From contig NW_026570281.1 of NCBI RefSeq assembly GCF_019649055.1, forward strand, positions 496,001 to 560,000: DNA of 64,000 nucleotides, given 5' to 3'. Both the position numbers and the translations under genes were made by a program. The notes beneath the pieces are model-generated. The model was given only the letters and a program-made list of their open reading frames with translations. It had not been told where the DNA came from and did not search any database. The first letter of the stretch is position 1, and every line of letters starts with the position of its first letter. This DNA comes from Paramacrobiotus metropolitanus (lineage: Eukaryota > Tardigrada > Eutardigrada > Parachela > Macrobiotidae). Shown in pieces: positions 16,901-64,000 of the stretch.

Positions 16901-19900
16901 TCATCGGGACGGCCAGCAGGCAAGACAGGCAGTGACGGAACCACACTGCCGCGGCGCTCCTTGTCGGGGTGGAAAGTGCCCAGTGTCTTCACCGTGCTGG
17001 CAAGGGGGCCGCTGTTGCGCACCGGCGGCGGCATCTCCTTTCTATCTTCGGGCGCGTGTGCCGGACATGGCTGGAATGTTCCGTTCGTCTGTACGGTGCG
17101 TCGGAGATTGCCTGCCAATGTGTCAACATTTAATTTTCGGCTCACTAAAAATTAATTTTCATACTACATTTAATGGTAGACTCGTAATTCGCAGTGTTGC
17201 TGGTATACGAGGAGGGGGTAAATGAGCTCGATGCACCCGAGCAAGGGGTAACAGAGCTCGTTATCTGTGACCGTGCCTGTGCAACACGGCCAGCCACCAA
17301 GAGACGGCAGCCCGTGCTATCACGCAGAACACCTGAAGCAGTCACTGAGCCCGATAGATTTTTGTTTCCATAGACTTGTATGCTAAACTGAATCACTTCT
17401 GTTTTGCATATTTGGGAACGAAACCAAGCAAATAACATTCCAAAAGAATTAGAAAAAATTCACGAGATTCTTAATACTAAACAAGTTCTGATTCATGGTG
17501 CAGGACACAAGTTATGGCCATTTATGTTTCTCGTAGACACAGCATAGAGTTTGTGCGTGGAACCCAACCGTTGATTCGAATGCTATGCTATGTCTACGAG
17601 AAACGCAAATGGCTATAACTTGTGTCCTGCACCAGGAATCATAACTTGTTTAGTATCAAAAATCTCGTGAATTTTTTCTGATTCTTTGGAATGTTATTTG
17701 CTTGGTTTCGTTCCCGAATGTGCAAAACAGAAGTGATTCAGTTTAGCATACAAGTCTATGGAAACAAAAATCTATCGGGCTCAGTGACTGCTTCAGGTGT
17801 TCTGCGTGATAGCACGGGCTGCCGTCTCTTGGTGGCTGGCCGTGTTGCACAGGCACGGTCACAGATAACGAGCTCTGTTACCCCTTGCTCGGGTGCATCG
17901 AGCTCATTTACCCCCTCCTCGTAGTTATCGACTTACTCTGTATTTTTTGAAAACTGGCAACCAAATATAGAAAAGATCGGCAATAAATGACTACCACTTC
18001 GTCCATCACTCAGATTGGCTTATCACTCGTCCGCGCTTGACTTTTTTAATTACTTATTTAAATCAGACTGAAATTTAAATATTTTCATCTAAAAAAGAAT
18101 TATTAATTACAAAAATTTTTAATAAAAAAGAATTTGGCTTTCTAGAATATTCTGAATTTCCCTTGCGTGACCTTTGAACTGCTGTGCTGTGCTTTCAACG
18201 CTATACTGAGTGATCATTTCCCAGCAGTGATTTCCATCGCATTCGGAGTACTCTGATCTCACTCAATTGCCGTTTAATTCCGCATATTCATGCAGTCTTC
18301 ATCGTCATCGAGTGCGCTGCACAGGTGCTGTGCATAACCTACTTTCCACCGCCTCAGCACTAAATATTAGTGTAAAATTCTCAATAGATACTTTTGTTGG
18401 CCCCAAACGAATCTCTCCATATATCTGTCTCTCCATCCGTCGGCGTGCAGCGTAACGACGATCCTCGCCGCGCTGCATGTTAGTGTTACGAACTAAGCAG
18501 TTAACCTTCTCTTGTCGCCAGTGCACTGCTCATATGCTGACTGCCAATTTGCAAGTCAACGCACAAACGGCCCATGTAATCGCCAGCGTTCGAAAAAACA
18601 CCACTAACCAACCACTACTTGTATGAATCCTATCCGTGATGAGGTCCAAACTGCAACTCGCCAATATGCCGCTATCGCTTTTTTCTGCCCTACTGACGAG
18701 TCTGATGTGCAGACCCGCAGCAGCAAAGTGCAACCAAATGTATTCATCTCCCTCGGTCATATGATCGCTTATTCAACTCTAAACAGCTAAAAAAGACAGA
18801 AAAACCCGCGTCGCATTCATCTATACCCGCTTGTAATCCAAAACCATCAAAGCAGTTGTAAACAATACCAGAAAAATTCATAACCATCTCCTTCAAGCCA
18901 AGTGACACCCTAATGTTGACCACTCAGCTAGTGTTATACATACACCGTATATTCTCCTTTTCCTAGGGTAGCTTTTCAATAGCGCTGTAGAAAAAATTAG
19001 CAAAATGTATCGAAAAGTTTTATTATAATTACACTCAGAGCGCATTCTGATAATGTGTTTATTACATATTACATAATTCCTAAAACCTCTCAGTCTCTCC
19101 GTTTACAGAAGTATGCTAAAATATGCCAAAAAACAAATGCCAAAAAAGTCTAAACCACTACAGAAACAACAAAAATTCGCTATTAAATATACAAATAAAA
19201 AATGCAATGGCACGCTTTAAATGTTAACAATATTAGATACGCTGTTCGAAGAATTACACGTACATTATCGCGGTAAACAAGTGTGAGAAGACGGCGTTGA
19301 TTAGGAAGTGCGCCAAAGGCCGATAAGTCGTGATCAGTCTTATGTAGCGATGATCGTTTACATATTCCCTTATCAAGGTTATCTCAACAAGCACAACCTA
19401 GGCCAACGCTGCCGTGCAACACCGAACACCCCAGAGCGCAGTGCGTCTTGCGTAAGCGTCTTAGCCACTGCAGTCGCACGCCAAAGTCCAACACAACCCC
19501 GCGTTACGGAGATGGAACACCGCGGCAAAAAACTTTATGCCTCAATACGGGGAAACATGCGAAAACAACTATTACTGTACAGTCAAATTAACCAACCTGT
19601 GGAGTAGGATCCATTATGGCTGATCGAGGACGGCAGTGACTCGGAGGACACTACCGATTCCACACTGGGCGACCGCGGCACCGTCGTCGCTAATCCGTGC
19701 GCCACTGTCTCCGGGACCAGGGTCACTTCCGGACGCACCCGTTTCCGACCGCGTTCATCTACAAACACCCACTCGTTGCCCTGCAGCACCGCCCAGCTGC
19801 CTTCGGCACTGCCGGCCACCACCAGCGTCCCGCTACGCGGATCAGAAGCCACTTGGTAGAGGAATCCCATCCCGCCCTTCCGCACGCTGACAGCGGTCAG

Positions 19901-29233: not shown

Positions 29234-29824
29234 ACGAGCGTTGCAGGTATTACAGTGGACTGCGAAAAGGTGTTACAACGCGCGCAACCAGGCACTTTTC
29301 TGTACTAAGACAGGCAAATTCGTGACTGGCCATCGGCCTGCTGGTATTAACACATGCACCTTGCGCATTTCCCAACGAAAACAATCAACCGATATCTCAA
29401 ACGAAAGAGAAAAAAATTTTAAAAATTTTGATACCAAGCAAGTTGTTCTTTATGGGATCTAAGAGAAAATCGACGCACCTAAAGTTTCTCGTAGACATAG
29501 CATACGATTTGAATCCACGGTTTGGATTCAGTTTTAACACAGAAATCGTATGCTTTGTCTACGACAAACTAAAATGGCTCGATTTTCTCTTAGATCTCGT
29601 AAAGGATCACCTGTTTGGTACCAGAATTCTTGAAATTTTGTTCTCTTTCGTTTGAGATATCGGCTGATGGTTTTCATTGGGAAATGCGCAACGTGCAAGT
29701 GTTCAAATTCTTGCGCGTTTCCTGTGTATTGGTCATTTGGTCTTGGCCATTTATTGGGATTGGACATTCGGTCGCGGACCGAATGTAACAGGTTTTCGCA
29801 GTCCACTGTAACTGCAACGCTCGT
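29234..29824. mobile_element. Long-inverted-repeat foldback element, copy B
   Basis: Two imperfect arms of roughly 270-280 bp converge on a loop at 29511-29542. The inner arms are perfect or nearly so (29483-29510 against 29543-29570). The outer ends read ACGAGCGTTGCAG and its complement, followed by TTACAGTGGACTGCGAAAA. The inner TTTCTCGTAGACATAGCATA matches the inner end of copy A at 17525-17547, and the AAGCAAGTT segment before it also has a counterpart there, so the two are diverged members of one family. It lies about 440 bp upstream of the first supported TACC exon. Confidence 0.7.
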
Positions 29825-56555: not shown

Positions 56556-58441
56556 ATGTACGAACCACCGGCAACAACCTTCGGAGACGGGAGTGAGCCG
56601 TATCCTCGGCAGAACATCACGCCTGCCTGGACTTCGCACCCCACTTCACCGCCCCTGCCGACGCCCCCCGATGACTCCTTCACCCCCGCCGAACTGTCTG
56701 CCGCCCTTGTCGACGCTGTTCAGCGCGGCAACATGGAAAAGTTGCAGCGTCTGGTCGATTTGTACAGGTATGTACATGTACCTTCCTTTCCCAAAGAATC
56801 CTATAACCACATTGAATCTACAGGTATGATGTGAACACTCCCGATAAGGAGGATTGTTCTCTCCTGCAGTGGGCGGCGCTTAATAACCACGTGCCGGTGA
56901 TGCGCTACCTGATCGAGAAGGGTGCCAACGTGGATTACATTGGCGGGGAACTGCGGGCCACGCCCCTGCACTGGGCCACTTTCATGGGTAACCTCCCGGC
57001 GGTGGTGTGTCTGGTGCAGCAGGGGGCGGACGCCGGCGTGGTTAACCGCGACGGCTGCACCACACTGCACTTCGCGGCGCAGCGCGGTTTCAGCCACATC
57101 GTAGCGTATCTTCTAGGCCGCGGGATGGATGTCAATCTGCGCGATCAGTTCGGCATGACGCCGCTGATGTGGGCCACCAAAGTGGCCGCCATGGATCCCG
57201 CCCGCCTCCTCGTCCATATGGGTGCCGACGTAAACGCCAAGGACCGCATGCATGGCAACACGGCGCTGCACTGGGCCGTCCTTAACACCAATGTAAGCGT
57301 CTGCCAGCTGCTGTTGTCCAGCGGCGCGGATGTTGACGCGGTGAACGTCGATAACAAGACGCCGCTGCAATTGTCGTTGACGGAGAAACGGAATCGCTTT
57401 GTGGAGGAGATCATCCGCACTCACCGCCAGGAAAGGGGGCTGGAGGGCTCCTGGATCACGCGCAACATCCTCCGCAACGATCGGCTGGTGCGTGGTCTAT
57501 TCAACAGCGTCCCGGTGCTGACTTTTATCTTTGTGGGCAGCGTTTTCACCCTCAACTGCAGCTACTTCCTCAAATTCCTTGCCATTATAATCTACGCCCT
57601 TATCGTCTTCTACGCCGGGAAGTGGCTGCACTTTTCGCGTTTCTCCGAAAAATTCGCCCTGGCGGTGTACCTCGGCTGCAAATCTTGCATCCTCCTCACC
57701 GCCTTTTTCCTATGGCTACCGACGGTGTACTCTTGGACCAACATCTTGGCCTGGATAATTCTGATGGGCGGATTATGGTACAACTTCCTGCGCACATGGC
57801 TAGGCGATCCCGGCTTCATTAATCCACCCAAGGAAGACAAATTGCGCGCCGTGGTGGAGTTGGCGGAGAAGAATGAGTTCAGCGTGGCCAAACTCTGCAC
57901 GACGTGTCTTGTCGTGCGACCGCTGCGCTCGAAACACTGCTCGGTGTGCGGAAAATGCGTGGCGGTGATGGACCACCACTGTCCCTTCACCGGCAACTGT
58001 GGGCCGCGCCAATCATCGTTTCTTCGTGGGCTACCTGGTGTGGCTTAGTATGTCGGGCATCGGCGCTGTTCACACCGGATTGACGTATCTGGGCGCGGTG
58101 TGGGCTTGAATCGGCACGGTTCCTCTTGACCATCGGCCCGGCGCTGGAGTGCGGGCGTGGAGCGCCTTCGTCATCGCCTTTGCGCTGCTGTTCACGGTGT
58201 GGATTGGATTCCTTGCGCTGATGCAGTTGTACCAGATCTCCGTGGTGGCCATGACGACCAATGAGCGCATCAATCAGCACCGCTACGGACACTTCCGTGG
58301 GGAGGATGGGACGCGACTGAGCCCTTTTCATAAGGGCTTCGTGGAAATTGTCTCGAATTCTGGGAGATGGAATGCTTTGGTTTGCGGCGCAGATGGCTGG
58401 ATGGGAAACCTTATCAAAAGCTGAATGATGAAAATGTCTAA
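56556..58441 (+). pseudogene. ZDHHC17: ZDHHC17/HIP14 ankyrin-DHHC palmitoyltransferase, frame broken after the DHHC motif (unit 1)
   Basis: Exon 1 (56556-56767) and a large exon from 56824 join in phase (LYR|YDVN). HIP14 is a Golgi/vesicle S-acyltransferase whose ankyrin domain recruits substrates. A proline-rich N-terminus is followed by ankyrin repeats (about residues 71-250, for example TPLHWATFMGNLPAVVCLV and TALHWAVLNTNVSV), membrane helices (VPVLTFIFVGSVF, FLAIIIYALIVFYAG), then the cysteine-rich domain with the catalytic DHHC (MDHHCPFTGNC). The frame then shifts because a GT is missing at about 57998 compared with the downstream copy, and it stops at 58048. Further losses at about 58105 (2 bases), 58153 and 58342 (1 each) follow up to the original stop at 58441. 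Without repair the enzyme ends one turn after its active site. It may be a sequence error, since the ankyrin half is intact. Confidence 0.88.
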
Positions 58442-59675
58442 ATCACTCTTTTTCCCTACGTTTAACGACCATTTAATGCAGATTTTCGCTCTTCATAATA
58501 CAGATTTTTCTTGTTTAATAGGTTTACAGATTTGACAACTCGACCATTTTGATGTACGTCTTTTTTTTGGATTTTGGAATTCTGAATTAATAAAGTATTA
58601 CAAGACTCGCTGGATCGATGGGAAATTTGAAATCCAAAAATCGATGTACGCAGAAAAATTAATAGTATCAAAATAGATGCCATATGTCGTGCTATTTGTA
58701 GTGCGTACTTGCAAAAACTAAAAGAATTTATCTACTGACCAGTGAGTACTTAATACTGTTAATAGGGATGATAAAACGGCTCTGTTGGAGTTGGATATTA
58801 ACCGATAAGATGCAATAATGAGCTGATAGTAAGAAATACTTACGGTAACTGGTTTCGGTCCTTTCGAATAACAAAGAAAATTATTAGGATACTTAGAAGT
58901 TGGATTATGAATAAAATTATAAATTTTTAAATAAAGGATAATGTTAATGACACGTGTTGTCTCGGGGCCCGGGCTATGAGTGGCACTAATCGAGCCCGGA
59001 ACAAAATGACGTCGAAATCGAATATCGGTACGTTTCGGACAGGCACACCGGCGGACATTCGGATTGGCCACTTCGGTGAATGCGTATCCGCCCTCCCATC
59101 GGCTGGCTTTCAACTTCTGATTCATACTGTACACCGCGAAATTTTATGGAATTCCAAATCCGACAGCCTCATCCGATTTGGAAATCTGGAATTGGAAAAC
59201 ATCGATTGTCGATTTTGAAAACATCGATTACGATTTTGCCAACCCGGATGCTGGACTTAGAATTTTTCTCAAATTTTGATTTTCCAATTCCACATTCTAT
59301 TACACTTAGTGTAATGGATTTTTCCATATAAATGACTGGAATTGGCCCTAATCTGGTGTTTACGCCATAGTGAAGTCTGGATGTTGCCGTTGGCGTTGCA
59401 ATTTACAGTACAACTACGATAAAAGGTTGTTTTTTTCTTATTTTTTTAGTCTGTTTGAGTGGATTTATTCAGATTTTCGGATATTTGTATTTCAGAGAAA
59501 TCTGAGTTCTGATTATGGTAGATTTCGATCCCTTTGAAGTGTCGTCTTGCTATCTCGTGTCTCCTGGCTATGTCGTCCCGTTTTGTCGAATCCATCGAGT
59601 TCTCAATCTCCACTATGTTGTTTCCATGGATCTCCAGGACGTTTCTGGAGATTCAGGGTCTATGAAAACCCCGTC
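57614..59675 (+). repeat. Tandem unit 1 (2,062 bp)
   Basis: It begins at GCCGGGAAGTGG inside the ZDHHC17 coding exon and runs through the DHHC half, the 3' flank and the 5' end of the next gene up to ACCCCGTC. It is the most diverged of the three units in its non-coding part (for example 58,500-58,740 differs from units 2 and 3 by several small indels). Confidence 0.9.
58442..59514 (+). other. 3' flank of ZDHHC17 and presumed 5' region of the next gene
   Basis: AT-rich flank, then a GC-richer island (58,960-59,140) open on both strands: 80 plus-strand codons starting MSGTNRARNKMTSKSNIG, and a minus-strand frame starting MYSMNQKLKASRWEGG. The plus frame could be a first exon of the downstream gene (a possible donor near 59,127), but I cannot prove splicing. 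A short palindrome ATTACACTTAGTGTAAT lies near 59,290. The same features recur in units 2 and 3. Confidence 0.4.
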
Positions 59676-60509
59676 GCCGGGAAGTGGCTGCACTTTTCGC
59701 GTTTCTCCGAAAAATTCGCCCTGGCGGTGTACCTCGGCTGCAAATCTTGCATCCTCCTCACCGCCTTTTTCCTATGGCTACCGACGGTGTACTCTTGGAC
59801 CAACATCTTGGCCTGGATAATTCTGATGGGCGGATTATGGTACAACTTCCTGCGCACATGGCTAGGCGATCCCGGCTTCATTAATCCACCCAAGGAAGAC
59901 AAATTGCGCGCCGTGGTGGAGTTGGCGGAGAAGAATGAGTTCAGCGTGGCCAAACTCTGCACGACGTGTCTTGTCGTGCGACCGCTGCGCTCGAAACACT
60001 GCTCGGTGTGCGGAAAATGCGTGGCGGTGATGGACCACCACTGTCCCTTCACCGGCAACTGTGTGGGCCGCGCCAATCATCGTTTCTTCGTGGGCTACCT
60101 GGTGTGGCTTAGTATGTCGGGCATCGGCGCTGTTCACACCGGATTGACGTATCTGGGCGCGGTGTGTGGGCTTGAATCGGCACGGTTCCTCTTGACCATC
60201 GGCCCGGCGCTGGAGTGCGGGGCGTGGAGCGCCTTCGTCATCGCCTTTGCGCTGCTGTTCACGGTGTGGATTGGATTCCTTGCGCTGATGCAGTTGTACC
60301 AGATCTCCGTGGTGGCCATGACGACCAATGAGCGCATCAATCAGCACCGCTACGGACACTTCCGTGGGGAGGATGGGACGCGACTGAGCCCTTTTCATAA
60401 GGGCTTCGTGGGAAATTGTCTCGAATTCTGGGAGATGGAATGCTTTGGTTTGCGGCGCAGATGGCTGGATGGGAAACCTTATCAAAAGCTGAATGATGAA
60501 AATGTCTAA
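59547..60509 (+). CDS. Ankyrin-less DHHC palmitoyltransferase frame (unit 2 of the tandem)
   Basis: A 320-residue open frame. The first about 43 residues come from the 5' end of the downstream gene read in an alternative frame (MLSRVSWLCRPVLSNPSSSQ). From AGKWLHFSRF onward it is the C-terminal half of ZDHHC17, intact: two membrane helices, the cysteine-rich domain (KLCTTCLVVRPLRSKHCSVC), the catalytic MDHHCPFTGNC, GRANHRFFVGYL, two more helices, the family TTxE motif as MTTNERIN, and the end KLNDENV. The ankyrin domain is missing. The ATG that the downstream gene appears to use (59515, MVDFDPFEVSS) enters the DHHC part out of frame, so translation would need the internal ATG at 59547. It shows what the unbroken end of ZDHHC17 should be. 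Whether it is expressed, or exists in the animal at all, is unknown. Confidence 0.65.
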   Translation: MLSRVSWLCRPVLSNPSSSQSPLCCFHGSPGRFWRFRVYENPVAGKWLHFSRFSEKFALAVYLGCKSCILLTAFFLWLPTVYSWTNILAWIILMGGLWYNFLRTWLGDPGFINPPKEDKLRAVVELAEKNEFSVAKLCTTCLVVRPLRSKHCSVCGKCVAVMDHHCPFTGNCVGRANHRFFVGYLVWLSMSGIGAVHTGLTYLGAVCGLESARFLLTIGPALECGAWSAFVIAFALLFTVWIGFLALMQLYQISVVAMTTNERINQHRYGHFRGEDGTRLSPFHKGFVGNCLEFWEMECFGLRRRWLDGKPYQKLNDENV

Positions 60510-61720
60510 ATCACTCTTTTTCCCTACGTTTAACGACCATTTAATACAGATTTTCGCTCTTCATAATACAGGTTTACAGATTTGACAACTCGACAATTTT
60601 GATGTACAATGTACGTCTTTTTTGGATTTTGGAATTCTGAATTAATAAAGTATTACAAGACTCGCTGGATCGATGGGAAATTTGCTAAATCCAAAAAAAA
60701 TCGATGTACGCAGAAAAATTTTTAGTATCAAAATAGATACAGTATAGTGCGTACTTGCAAAAAATAAAAGAATTTAACTACTGACCAGAGAGTACTTAAT
60801 ACTGTTAATAGGGATGATAAAACGGCTCTGTTGGAGTTGGATATTAACCGATAAGATGCAATAATGAGCTGATAGTAAGAAATACTTACGGTAACTGGTT
60901 TCGGTCCTTTCGAATAACAAAGAAAATTATTAGGATACTTAGAAGTTGGATTATGAATAAAATTATAAATTTTAAATAAAGGATAATGTTAATGACACGT
61001 GTTGTCTCGGGGCCCGGGCTATGAGTGGCACTAATCGAGCCCGGAACAAAATGACGTCGAAATCGAATATCGGTACGTTTCGGACAGGCACACCGGCGGA
61101 CATTCGGATTGGCCACTTCGGTGAATGCGTATCCGCCCTCCCATCGGCTGGCTTTCAACTTCTGATTCATACTGTACACCGCGAAATTTTATGGAATTCC
61201 AAATCCGACAGCCTCATCCGATTTGGAAATCTGGAATTGGAAAACATCGATTGTCGATTTTGAAAACATCGATTACGATTTTGCCAACCCGGATGCTGGA
61301 CTTAGAATTTTTCTCAAATTTTGATTTTCCAATTCCACATTCTATTACACTTAGTGTAATGGATTTTTCCATATAAATGACTGGAATTGGCCCTAATCTG
61401 GTGTTTACGCCATAGTGAAGTCTGGATGTTGCCGTTGGCGTTGCAATTTACAGTACAACTACGATAAAAGGTTGTTTTTTTCTTATTTTTTTAGTCTGTT
61501 TGAGTGGATTTATTCAGATTTTCGGATATTTGTATTTCAGAGAAATCTGAGTTCTGATTATGGTAGATTTCGATCCCTTTGAAGTGTCGTCTTGCTATCT
61601 CGTGTCTCCTGGCTATGTCGTCCCGTTTTGTCGAATCCATCGAGTTCTCAATCTCCACTATGTTGTTTCCATGGATCTCCAGGACGTTTCTGGAGATTCA
61701 GGGTCTATGAAAACCCCGTC
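59676..61720 (+). repeat. Tandem unit 2 (2,045 bp)
   Basis: Joined to unit 1 at CCCCGTC|GCCGGGAAG. It has an intact DHHC frame. Its non-coding half is nearly identical to unit 3 (both read GACAATTTTGATGTACAATG and lack a block present in unit 1 near 58,500). Confidence 0.9.
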
Positions 61721-62547
61721 GCCGGAAGTGGCTGCACTTTTCGCGTTTCTCCGAAAATTCGCCCTGGCGGTGTACCTCGGCTGCAAATCTTGCATCCTCC
61801 TCACCGCCTTTTTCCTATGGCTACCGACGGTGTACTCTTGGACCAACATCTTGGCCTGGATAATTTGATGGGCGGATTATGGTACAACTTCCTGCGCACA
61901 TGGCTAGGCGATCCCGGCTTCATTAATCCACCCAAGGAAGACAAATTGCGCGCCGTGGTGGAGTTGGCGGAGAAGAATGAGTTCAGCGTGGCCAAACTCT
62001 GCACGACGTGTCTTGTCGTGCGACCGCTGCGCTCGAAACACTGCTCGGTGTGCGGAAAATGCGTGGCGGTGATGGACCACCACTGTCCCTTCACCGGCAA
62101 CTGTGTGGGCCGCGCCAATCATCGTTTCTTCGTGGGCTACCTGGTGTGGCTTAGTATGTCGGGCATCGGCGCTGTTCACACCGGATTGACGTATCTGGGC
62201 GCGGTGTGGGCTTGAATCGGCACGGTTCCTCTTGACCATCGGCCCGGCGCTGGAGTGCGGGGCGTGGAGCGCCTTCGTCATCGCCTTTGCGCTGCTGTTC
62301 ACGGTGTGGATTGATTCCTTGCGCTGATGCAGTTGTACCAGATCTCCGTGGTGGCCATGACGACCAATGAGCGCATCAATCAGCACCGCTACGGACACTT
62401 CCGTGGGGAGGATGGGACGCGACTGAGCCCTTTTCATAAGGGCTTCGTGGAAATTGTCTCGAATTCTGGGAGATGGAATGCTTTGGTTTGCGGCGCAGAT
62501 GGCTGGATGGGAAACCTTATCAAAAGCTGAATGATGAAAATGTCTAA
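61592..62547 (+). pseudogene. Third, frameshifted copy of the DHHC half (unit 3)
   Basis: It aligns along its whole length with the unit 2 frame but differs by missing bases: one in GCCGGGAAG (61725), one in CCGAAAAATTC (about 61756), one in ATAATTCTG (about 61867), a GT at about 62207, one G at about 62314 and one G at about 62449. The cysteine-rich domain and DHHC motif can still be read between two of the breaks. Two of the losses (62207 and 62449) also occur at the same positions of unit 1. Confidence 0.8.
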
Positions 62548-63757
62548 ATCACTTTTTCCCTACGTTTAACGACCATTTAATACAGATTTTCGCTCTTCAT
62601 AATACAGGTTTACAGATTTGACAACTCGACAATTTTGATGTACAATGTACGTCTTTTTTGGATTTTGGAATTCTGAATTAATAAAGTATTACAAGACTCG
62701 CTGGATCGATGGGAAATTTGCTAAATCCAAAAAAAATCGATGTACGCAGAAAAATTTTTAGTATCAAAATAGATACAGTATAGTGCGTACTTGCAAAAAA
62801 TAAAAGAATTTAACTACTGACCAGAGAGTACTTAATACTGTTAATAGGGATGATAAAACGGCTCTGTTGGAGTTGGATATTAACCGATAAGATGCAATAA
62901 TGAGCTGATAGTAAGAAATACTTACGGTAACTGGTTTCGGTCCTTTCGAATAACAAAGAAAATTATTAGGATACTTAGAAGTTGGATTATGAATAAAATT
63001 ATAAATTTTTAAATAAAGGATAATGTTAATGACACGTGTTGTCTCGGGGCCCGGGCTATGAGTGGCACTAATCGAGCCCGGAACAAAATGACGTCGAAAT
63101 CGAATATCGGTACGTTTCGGACAGGCACACCGGCGGACATTCGGATTGGCCACTTCGGTGAATGCGTATCCGCCCTCCCATCGGCTGGCTTTCAACTTCT
63201 GATTCATACTGTACACCGCGAAATTTTATGGAATTCCAAATCCGACAGCCTCATCCGATTTGGAAATCTGGAATTGGAAAACATCGATTGTCGATTTTGA
63301 AAACATCGATTACGATTTTGCCAACCCGGATGCTGGACTTAGAATTTTTCTCAAATTTTGATTTTCCAATTCCACATTCTATTACACTTAGTGTAATGGA
63401 TTTTTCCATATAAATGACTGGAATTGGCCCTAATCTGGTGTTTACGCCATAGTGAAGTCTGGATGTTGCCGTTGGCGTTGCAATTTACAGTACAACTACG
63501 ATAAAAGGTTGTTTTTTTCTTATTTTTTTAGTCTGTTTGAGTGGATTTATTCAGATTTTCGGATATTTGTATTTCAGAGAAATCTGAGTTCTGATTATGG
63601 TAGATTTCGATCCCTTTGAAGTGTCGTCTTGCTATCTCGTGTCTCCTGGCTATGTCGTCCCGTTTTGTCGAATCCATCGAGTTCTCAATCTCCACTATGT
63701 TGTTTCCATGGATCTCCAGGACGTTTCTGGAGATTCAGGGTCTATGAAAACCCCGTC
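61721..63757 (+). repeat. Tandem unit 3 (2,037 bp)
   Basis: The last of the head-to-tail copies. It ends at CCCCGTC, after which the sequence continues as GCCATCAGTC into unique DNA (the body of the downstream gene) instead of GCCGGGAAG. Confidence 0.9.
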
Positions 63758-64000
63758 GCCATCAGTCATTCTTCTGTTTATTCCACCCGATAAAGACGAG
63801 CCCATGGAGGAGATCCCCATTATACAGCTGTTCGGCGTCGAGGACTGCGAGTTCTACTGGTAGAAAACGGCGATTACCTGGCCGTCAAAGTGGAGCGTTA
63901 TAACCATATCAAGAGAAAGGCGAAACAAAGTTTGACTACGGTGGAATATTTTATCAACCTGGAGGTTTTCGCCCAAATTAAACGAACGGAAGTCCCCGTA
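63597..64000 (+). CDS. 5' part of the next gene, unrecognised, running off the right edge, one frameshift
   Basis: From ATG 63597 the frame reads MVDFDPFEVSSCYLVSPGYV, crosses the end of the tandem array and continues in unique sequence (SVILLFIPPDKDEPMEEIPI to VEDCEFYW), stopping at 63863. The neighbouring frame then carries strongly coding sequence to the window end (VENGDYLAVKVERYNHIKRK, then VEYFINLEVFAQIKRTEVPV). A single missing C in TACTGGTAG (about 63857) would join them as CEFYLVENGDYL. The product is soluble and mixed acidic/basic; I do not recognise it. The first about 55 residues occur three times because of the tandem units. Confidence 0.55.

Follow-up and report, generated by a model that had tools for sequence, protein, structure and literature searches.

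A probable recent tandem duplication spanning part of a ZDHHC17-type gene and the left end of an adjacent transposon in the tardigrade Paramacrobiotus metropolitanus

Results

We analyzed a 64-kb stretch of the genome of the tardigrade Paramacrobiotus metropolitanus (assembly GCF_019649055.1, contig NW_026570281.1, positions 496,001 to 560,000), which we call the window; positions on the whole contig carry the prefix C61. Two of five DM-domain matches in this genome, at C5:2135071 and C5:2163474, agree with the DMRT pair that PMC11191345 places near 1.96-2.37 Mb of scaffold 5 in P. metropolitanus. Near the right edge of the window lies an array of about 6.1 kb in which three head-to-tail units, all on the forward strand and with one common pair of breakpoints, join the 3' half of a ZDHHC17-type gene to the left end of a transposon. 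Unit 1 (U1; 57614-59675, 2062 bp) comprises the 3' half of the gene, here joined to the ankyrin half, followed by intergenic DNA with a tract that we call tract A, and the transposon left end. Unit 2 (U2; 59676-61720, 2045 bp) carries a DHHC half with an unbroken frame (open reading frame (ORF) 59538-60509) and a second version of the tract, tract B. Unit 3 (U3; 61721-63757, 2037 bp) has a DHHC half with six coding deletions relative to U2, again tract B, and leads into the remainder of the transposon.

The left border of the units reads TACGCCGGG and the right border GTCGCCATC. The junction between U1 and U2 reads GTCGCCGGG, and that between U2 and U3 is identical except that its GGG run is one G shorter. 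The two breakpoints share the four bases CGCC, located at 63757-63760 on the right and inside the ZDHHC17-type gene on the left. When 200,000 breakpoint pairs were placed at random in these stretches, 1.5% had microhomology of at least 4 bp. An earlier note, made from the letters of the window, had described three same-border units of 2062, 2045 and 2037 bp with breakpoints sharing CGCC, and our self-comparison of the window and alignment of the units confirmed this layout. At the sensitivity of megablast, the window contains no other kb-scale direct repeat. We searched the genome (533 contigs, 169.8 Mb) with the ~0.7-kb intergenic part of the units and obtained three matches, which are the three units themselves. 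None of 13 other 10-kb samples of the genome (130 kb, a small sample) contained a kb-scale tandem duplication at ≥97%. A literature search of titles and abstract openings found no account of this locus.

The 5' part of the ZDHHC17-like gene lies outside the array (56556-57613, forward strand). It comprises exon 1, a 56-nt intron at approximately 56768-56823, the ankyrin repeats and transmembrane segments 1 and 2; the start codon, the intron and the two transmembrane segments were placed by eye from the sequence. The ORF at 56816-58048 matches the Pfam families Ank (E-value 1.6e-37) and DHHC (3.3e-14), and the DHHC half in U2 matches DHHC with an E-value of 6.8e-34. The same ORF matches the ankyrin chains 3eu9 and 5w7i of HIP14/ZDHHC17 at E-values near 1e-60, and several generic ankyrin chains score higher. 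The presence of Ank and DHHC in one ORF, together with the HIP14/ZDHHC17 matches, supports the name that the earlier note had given to this gene. The ankyrin half has one match in the genome; no second copy was found on another contig, a result that is not proof of absence. The full-length frame is not unbroken, as the U1 frame stops at 58048 in the assembly. The gene thus resembles ZDHHC17/HIP14 in having N-terminal ankyrin repeats and a DHHC domain, and differs in that the DHHC domain of the sole ankyrin-bearing copy in this assembly has an interrupted frame, for which read errors are the probable cause.

The units differ from one another in two distinct ways. All substitutions among units, and the larger indels, fall inside a single 266-bp tract (58478-58743 in U1, unit positions 865-1130). 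Within it, U2 and U3 share 14 substitutions relative to U1 in the MAFFT alignment, or nine by BLAST, plus several indels; four of the 14 form one block that is better read as a 7-bp insertion plus a difference in a T run. The earlier note was therefore right that U2 and U3 have non-coding differences from U1 in common. By simple arithmetic, the chance that nine evenly falling substitutions share one 266-bp stretch of 2062 is about (0.129)^8, or near 1e-7. The likeliest cause of the tract is a conversion patch or a haplotype switch. The genome search found no donor for it elsewhere, and a missing match does not prove absence.

Outside the tract, the remaining ~1.8 kb contains no substitution. 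It contains 10 indel sites with 12 copy-events, each of 1-2 nt (four in U1, one in U2 and seven in U3). Eight of the 10 sites, with 10 copy-events (four in U1 and six in U3), are coding, and no coding substitution separates the units. Seven of the eight coding sites fall within homopolymers of 2-5 bases or dinucleotide repeats. Frame-breaking short deletions are present in U1 and U3, and the DHHC frame of U2 is open. Two sites are shorter in both U1 and U3 than in U2, which contradicts the tract, where U2 and U3 group together; because the U2 frame is open, we took the shorter form as the wrong one. Decay of a pseudogene yields mostly substitutions, whereas errors in a nanopore consensus yield a short-indel pattern such as this one. 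The frameshifts in U1 and U3, including the one that breaks the ZDHHC17 frame, are thus most likely residual nanopore errors. Because the short deletions look like errors of this type, the working gene probably consists of the ankyrin half plus U1.

The earlier note had placed the right border inside a neighbouring gene. That border instead belongs to a transposon: it falls in the left end of the element, 3-7 nt ahead of a captured gene fragment. Unit positions 1532-2062 correspond to a dispersed transposon left end that recurs at five other loci. In C61, the element extends from window position 63227 (C61:559227) to C61:573138, a length of 13.9 kb, and was inserted approximately 0.7 kb downstream of the ZDHHC17 stop codon. 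Its left terminal inverted repeat (TIR) lies at 59145-59398 in U1 (forward strand). The copies in U2 (61190-61443) and U3 (63227-63480) were located by their starts, with the ends set by register; the U3 copy leads into the rest of the element and its right end. The inverted partner of the terminal 254 bp is 87% alike and lies ~13.9 kb away. The left target-site duplication, AAATTT, lies at 59139-59144 and is repeated at 61184-61189 and 63221-63226; the same six bases come after the right end at C61:573138. Because the target duplication and the left TIR occur in every unit, the insertion predates the duplication of the units.

The ends of the element have the form TA..TA (TATGGAATTCC...GGAATTCCATA). 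Duplications of 6 bp flank four of the six copies, that is, all four for which both ends were found: AAATTT (C61), TACACG (C4), AGTGGC (C6) and ATGAGC (C3). For the remaining two, the second end of the C421 copy was not matched by the end patterns used, and the searches returned no partner end for the C2 copy. The C61 element contains pieces of an integrase core (PF24764, E-value 1e-17) with in-frame stops, the transposase being in pieces as assembled, and a HECT piece that scores just under the Pfam cut-off (23.2 versus 23.9 bits). PF24764 was also matched between the ends of the long copies on C3 and C421, and short versions of ~3.0 and ~3.4 kb occur on C4 and C6. The family is young, as the C3 copy is 99.5% identical to the C61 element across 2275 aligned bases. 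Integrase cores of the PF24764 (rva_4) type abound in the genome, with 55 matches, many of them exon pieces and some in long open frames.

IS3EU/GingerRoot transposons, as described in the excerpted text of PMC10045372, have TA..TA termini, 6-bp target duplications and an integrase-type core. The element shares all three features and, because its ends and target duplications fit that description, we regard it as IS3EU/GingerRoot-like. It differs in its length of ~14 kb, its 254-bp TIRs, its sub-threshold HECT-like piece and its captured fragment of eIF3b. The large TIRs and the 6-bp target duplication had first suggested a Maverick/Polinton, a class that now seems less likely: the TA..TA ends fit IS3EU/GingerRoot, and no DNA polymerase B, capsid or protease family of the Maverick/Polinton type was detected in the 10 ORFs scanned, out of a set of 18 with at least 100 aa and three others. 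The ORFs of the element are short and broken.

The captured eIF3b fragment occupies 63764-64000 (forward strand) and continues past the window (C61:560001-560391). Homology at the DNA level to related genes or fragments on three contigs (C4:3600112, C28:1044573 and C23:1082694) starts at 63764-63765. The right-hand ORF of the window itself had no PDB match up to an E-value of 0.1 and no Pfam match up to 0.01, so we took the name eIF3b from the homologous loci. Of these, the C4 locus matches eIF3b chains in the PDB (E-value 1.3e-22), and both it and the C28 locus score just above the cut-off for Pfam eIF2A. Pieces of the element share 57-67% protein identity with the C4 and C28 loci. In all six transposon copies examined, the stretch that precedes the fragment, which we call the leader, continues into it at the same place. 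The right breakpoint of the array (63757-63760) therefore sits 3-7 nt ahead of an old gene-capture boundary. A perfect 8-bp hairpin with a 7-nt loop (63712-63734; also at 59630-59652 and, by register, in U2) ends 23 nt before this breakpoint. Both of its arms, checked by eye, are kept in the six copies. A hairpin of this kind is no more than 25 nt away from 2.8% of window positions. The 101-nt fold at the hairpin has a z-score of -1.7, with 12 of 200 shuffles as good.

The earlier note had further proposed that each junction fuses the start of one gene to the catalytic half of another. Our analysis did not support such a fusion. The leader ATGs at 59515 and 59662 are in a frame that differs from that of the U2 DHHC half, and the U1-U2 junction ORF has no in-frame ATG before its residue 97. 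A leader-started fusion protein is thus not expected at this junction, and the inner DHHC halves and their junctions are probably inert because no start codon is in frame. The U3 frame is broken as assembled.

We also recorded repeats of other kinds. One background sample (C50:507700-510000) contains a short tandem-repeat array with 85-91% identity at offsets that are multiples of ~120 bp, and another (L031) contains a 0.2-kb inverted repeat. In the window, a 0.7-kb imperfect palindrome at 17206-17923 is 93.5% self-complementary, and a weaker one (79%) lies at 29349-29703.

Discussion

We consider that the array probably arose by a recent local tandem duplication that was amplified to three copies. 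Microhomology-mediated tandem duplication followed by unequal crossing over is a general mechanism of copy-number change. The array resembles its products in the same breakpoints for each unit, the short microhomology, the near-identical units and the whole end copies; it differs in the bounded divergent tract, which suggests added conversion or haplotype merging.

The events may have taken place in four steps. First, the ~14-kb IS3EU/GingerRoot-like transposon inserted ~0.7 kb past the ZDHHC17 stop codon and duplicated AAATTT, as its ends and target duplication show. Second, a break or template switch may have joined the point in the transposon just before the eIF3b fragment to the point in ZDHHC17 through CGCC, producing a 2-kb duplication; the junction is observed, and the mechanism is our proposal for it. 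Third, unequal exchange or slippage between the repeats would have produced the third copy, since the second junction is in the same place and U2 equals U3 in the tract. Unequal exchange at this step is plausible, but a merged array polymorphism between haplotypes would look alike. Fourth, the 266-bp patch that separates U1 from U2 and U3 could be the trace of a diverged allele that entered by conversion or through haplotype merging. Such a duplication leaves whole end copies of both neighbours, so ZDHHC17 (the ankyrin half plus U1) and the transposon (from U3 onward) would have been kept.

Several points weigh against this interpretation. The array is described here from the assembled sequence, in which the order of U1, U2 and U3 may be a mosaic of alleles: the assembly was made from ~3000 pooled animals, with heterozygous variants retained and haplotypes merged afterwards. 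A microhomology of 4 bp is weak evidence of mechanism, and a simple recent triplication does not predict a bounded divergent tract. Finally, the reading of the two shared indel sites as base loss in U1 and U3, and not as gain in U2, depends on the open frame of U2.

The alternative that survives best, although we consider it unlikely, is assembly inflation, in which one haplotype carries one unit and another carries two (or some other number), and the assembly spliced one allele (with U1) to the other (with U2 and U3). Tracts A and B do act like two alleles. According to the excerpted text of PMC8277472, R9.4 nanopore reads from ~3000 animals were assembled with Canu (heterozygous variants being kept), polished with nanopolish and Pilon, and processed with HaploMerger2, so that haplotypes were preserved and then merged. 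PMC9516828 reports that false duplications, most of them involving haplotypes that had diverged, accounted for 4-16% of three earlier vertebrate assemblies. The units here are like such heterotype false duplications in differing as alleles do, in an assembly that preserved heterozygosity, and are unlike them in having two same-place junctions and no gap between units. A haplotype misjoin would not twice yield a junction at the same place (bar one G), and at least one junction is expected in the reads. The ~1.8 kb outside the tract has no substitution between the supposed alleles. The nanopore read N50 is ~17 kb according to PMC11191345, so reads should span the 6.1-kb array. Because the two junctions agree in position, at least one real junction is likely, and three copies are plausible.

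A second alternative, which we regard as very improbable, is capture driven by the transposon. The leader end would then be a recurrent acceptor for pieces of host genes, eIF3b anciently and ZDHHC17 here, perhaps as a hairpin-prone break site. In favour of this reading, the eIF3b boundary begins 3-7 nt after the breakpoint, and the hairpin is also close, a proximity that few window positions share. However, all five leader copies found outside the locus (a lower bound) enter the same eIF3b fragment and none enters a third gene, and the ZDHHC17 piece at the junction simply comes from beside this very insertion, as tandem duplication predicts. The fold is unremarkable against its shuffles. The closeness of the breakpoint to the capture boundary was noticed post hoc, and we regard it as a probable coincidence. 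The narrower proposal, that the leader end is a recurrent break-and-join site, used twice at one point (to within 7 nt), for an eIF3b fragment in the family ancestor and independently for ZDHHC17 at this locus, has a slimmer chance still. Least probable of all are functional chimeras in which the transposon leader would drive expression of extra DHHC palmitoyltransferase halves: the U2 frame is unbroken and leader ATGs lie upstream of the U1-U2 junction, but these ATGs are in another frame, the first in-frame ATG comes only at residue 97, and an open frame in so young an array cannot be taken as a sign of selection.

The event that formed the array is of an ordinary, already known kind. What is most curious about it is that the divergent tract is bounded and that the breakpoint lies next to the capture boundary. 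Were recurrent joining at the leader end true, the element would repeatedly make chimeras of its leader and the 3' part of a host gene. The significance outside the locus is slight; the locus illustrates cleanly a young tandem array with a breakpoint inside a transposon that was itself a recent insertion. It also gives a caution for nanopore assemblies, in which uncorrected short deletions in near-identical copies can mimic pseudogenes. For counts of DHHC genes in this genome, the three units should be taken as one gene pending a read check.

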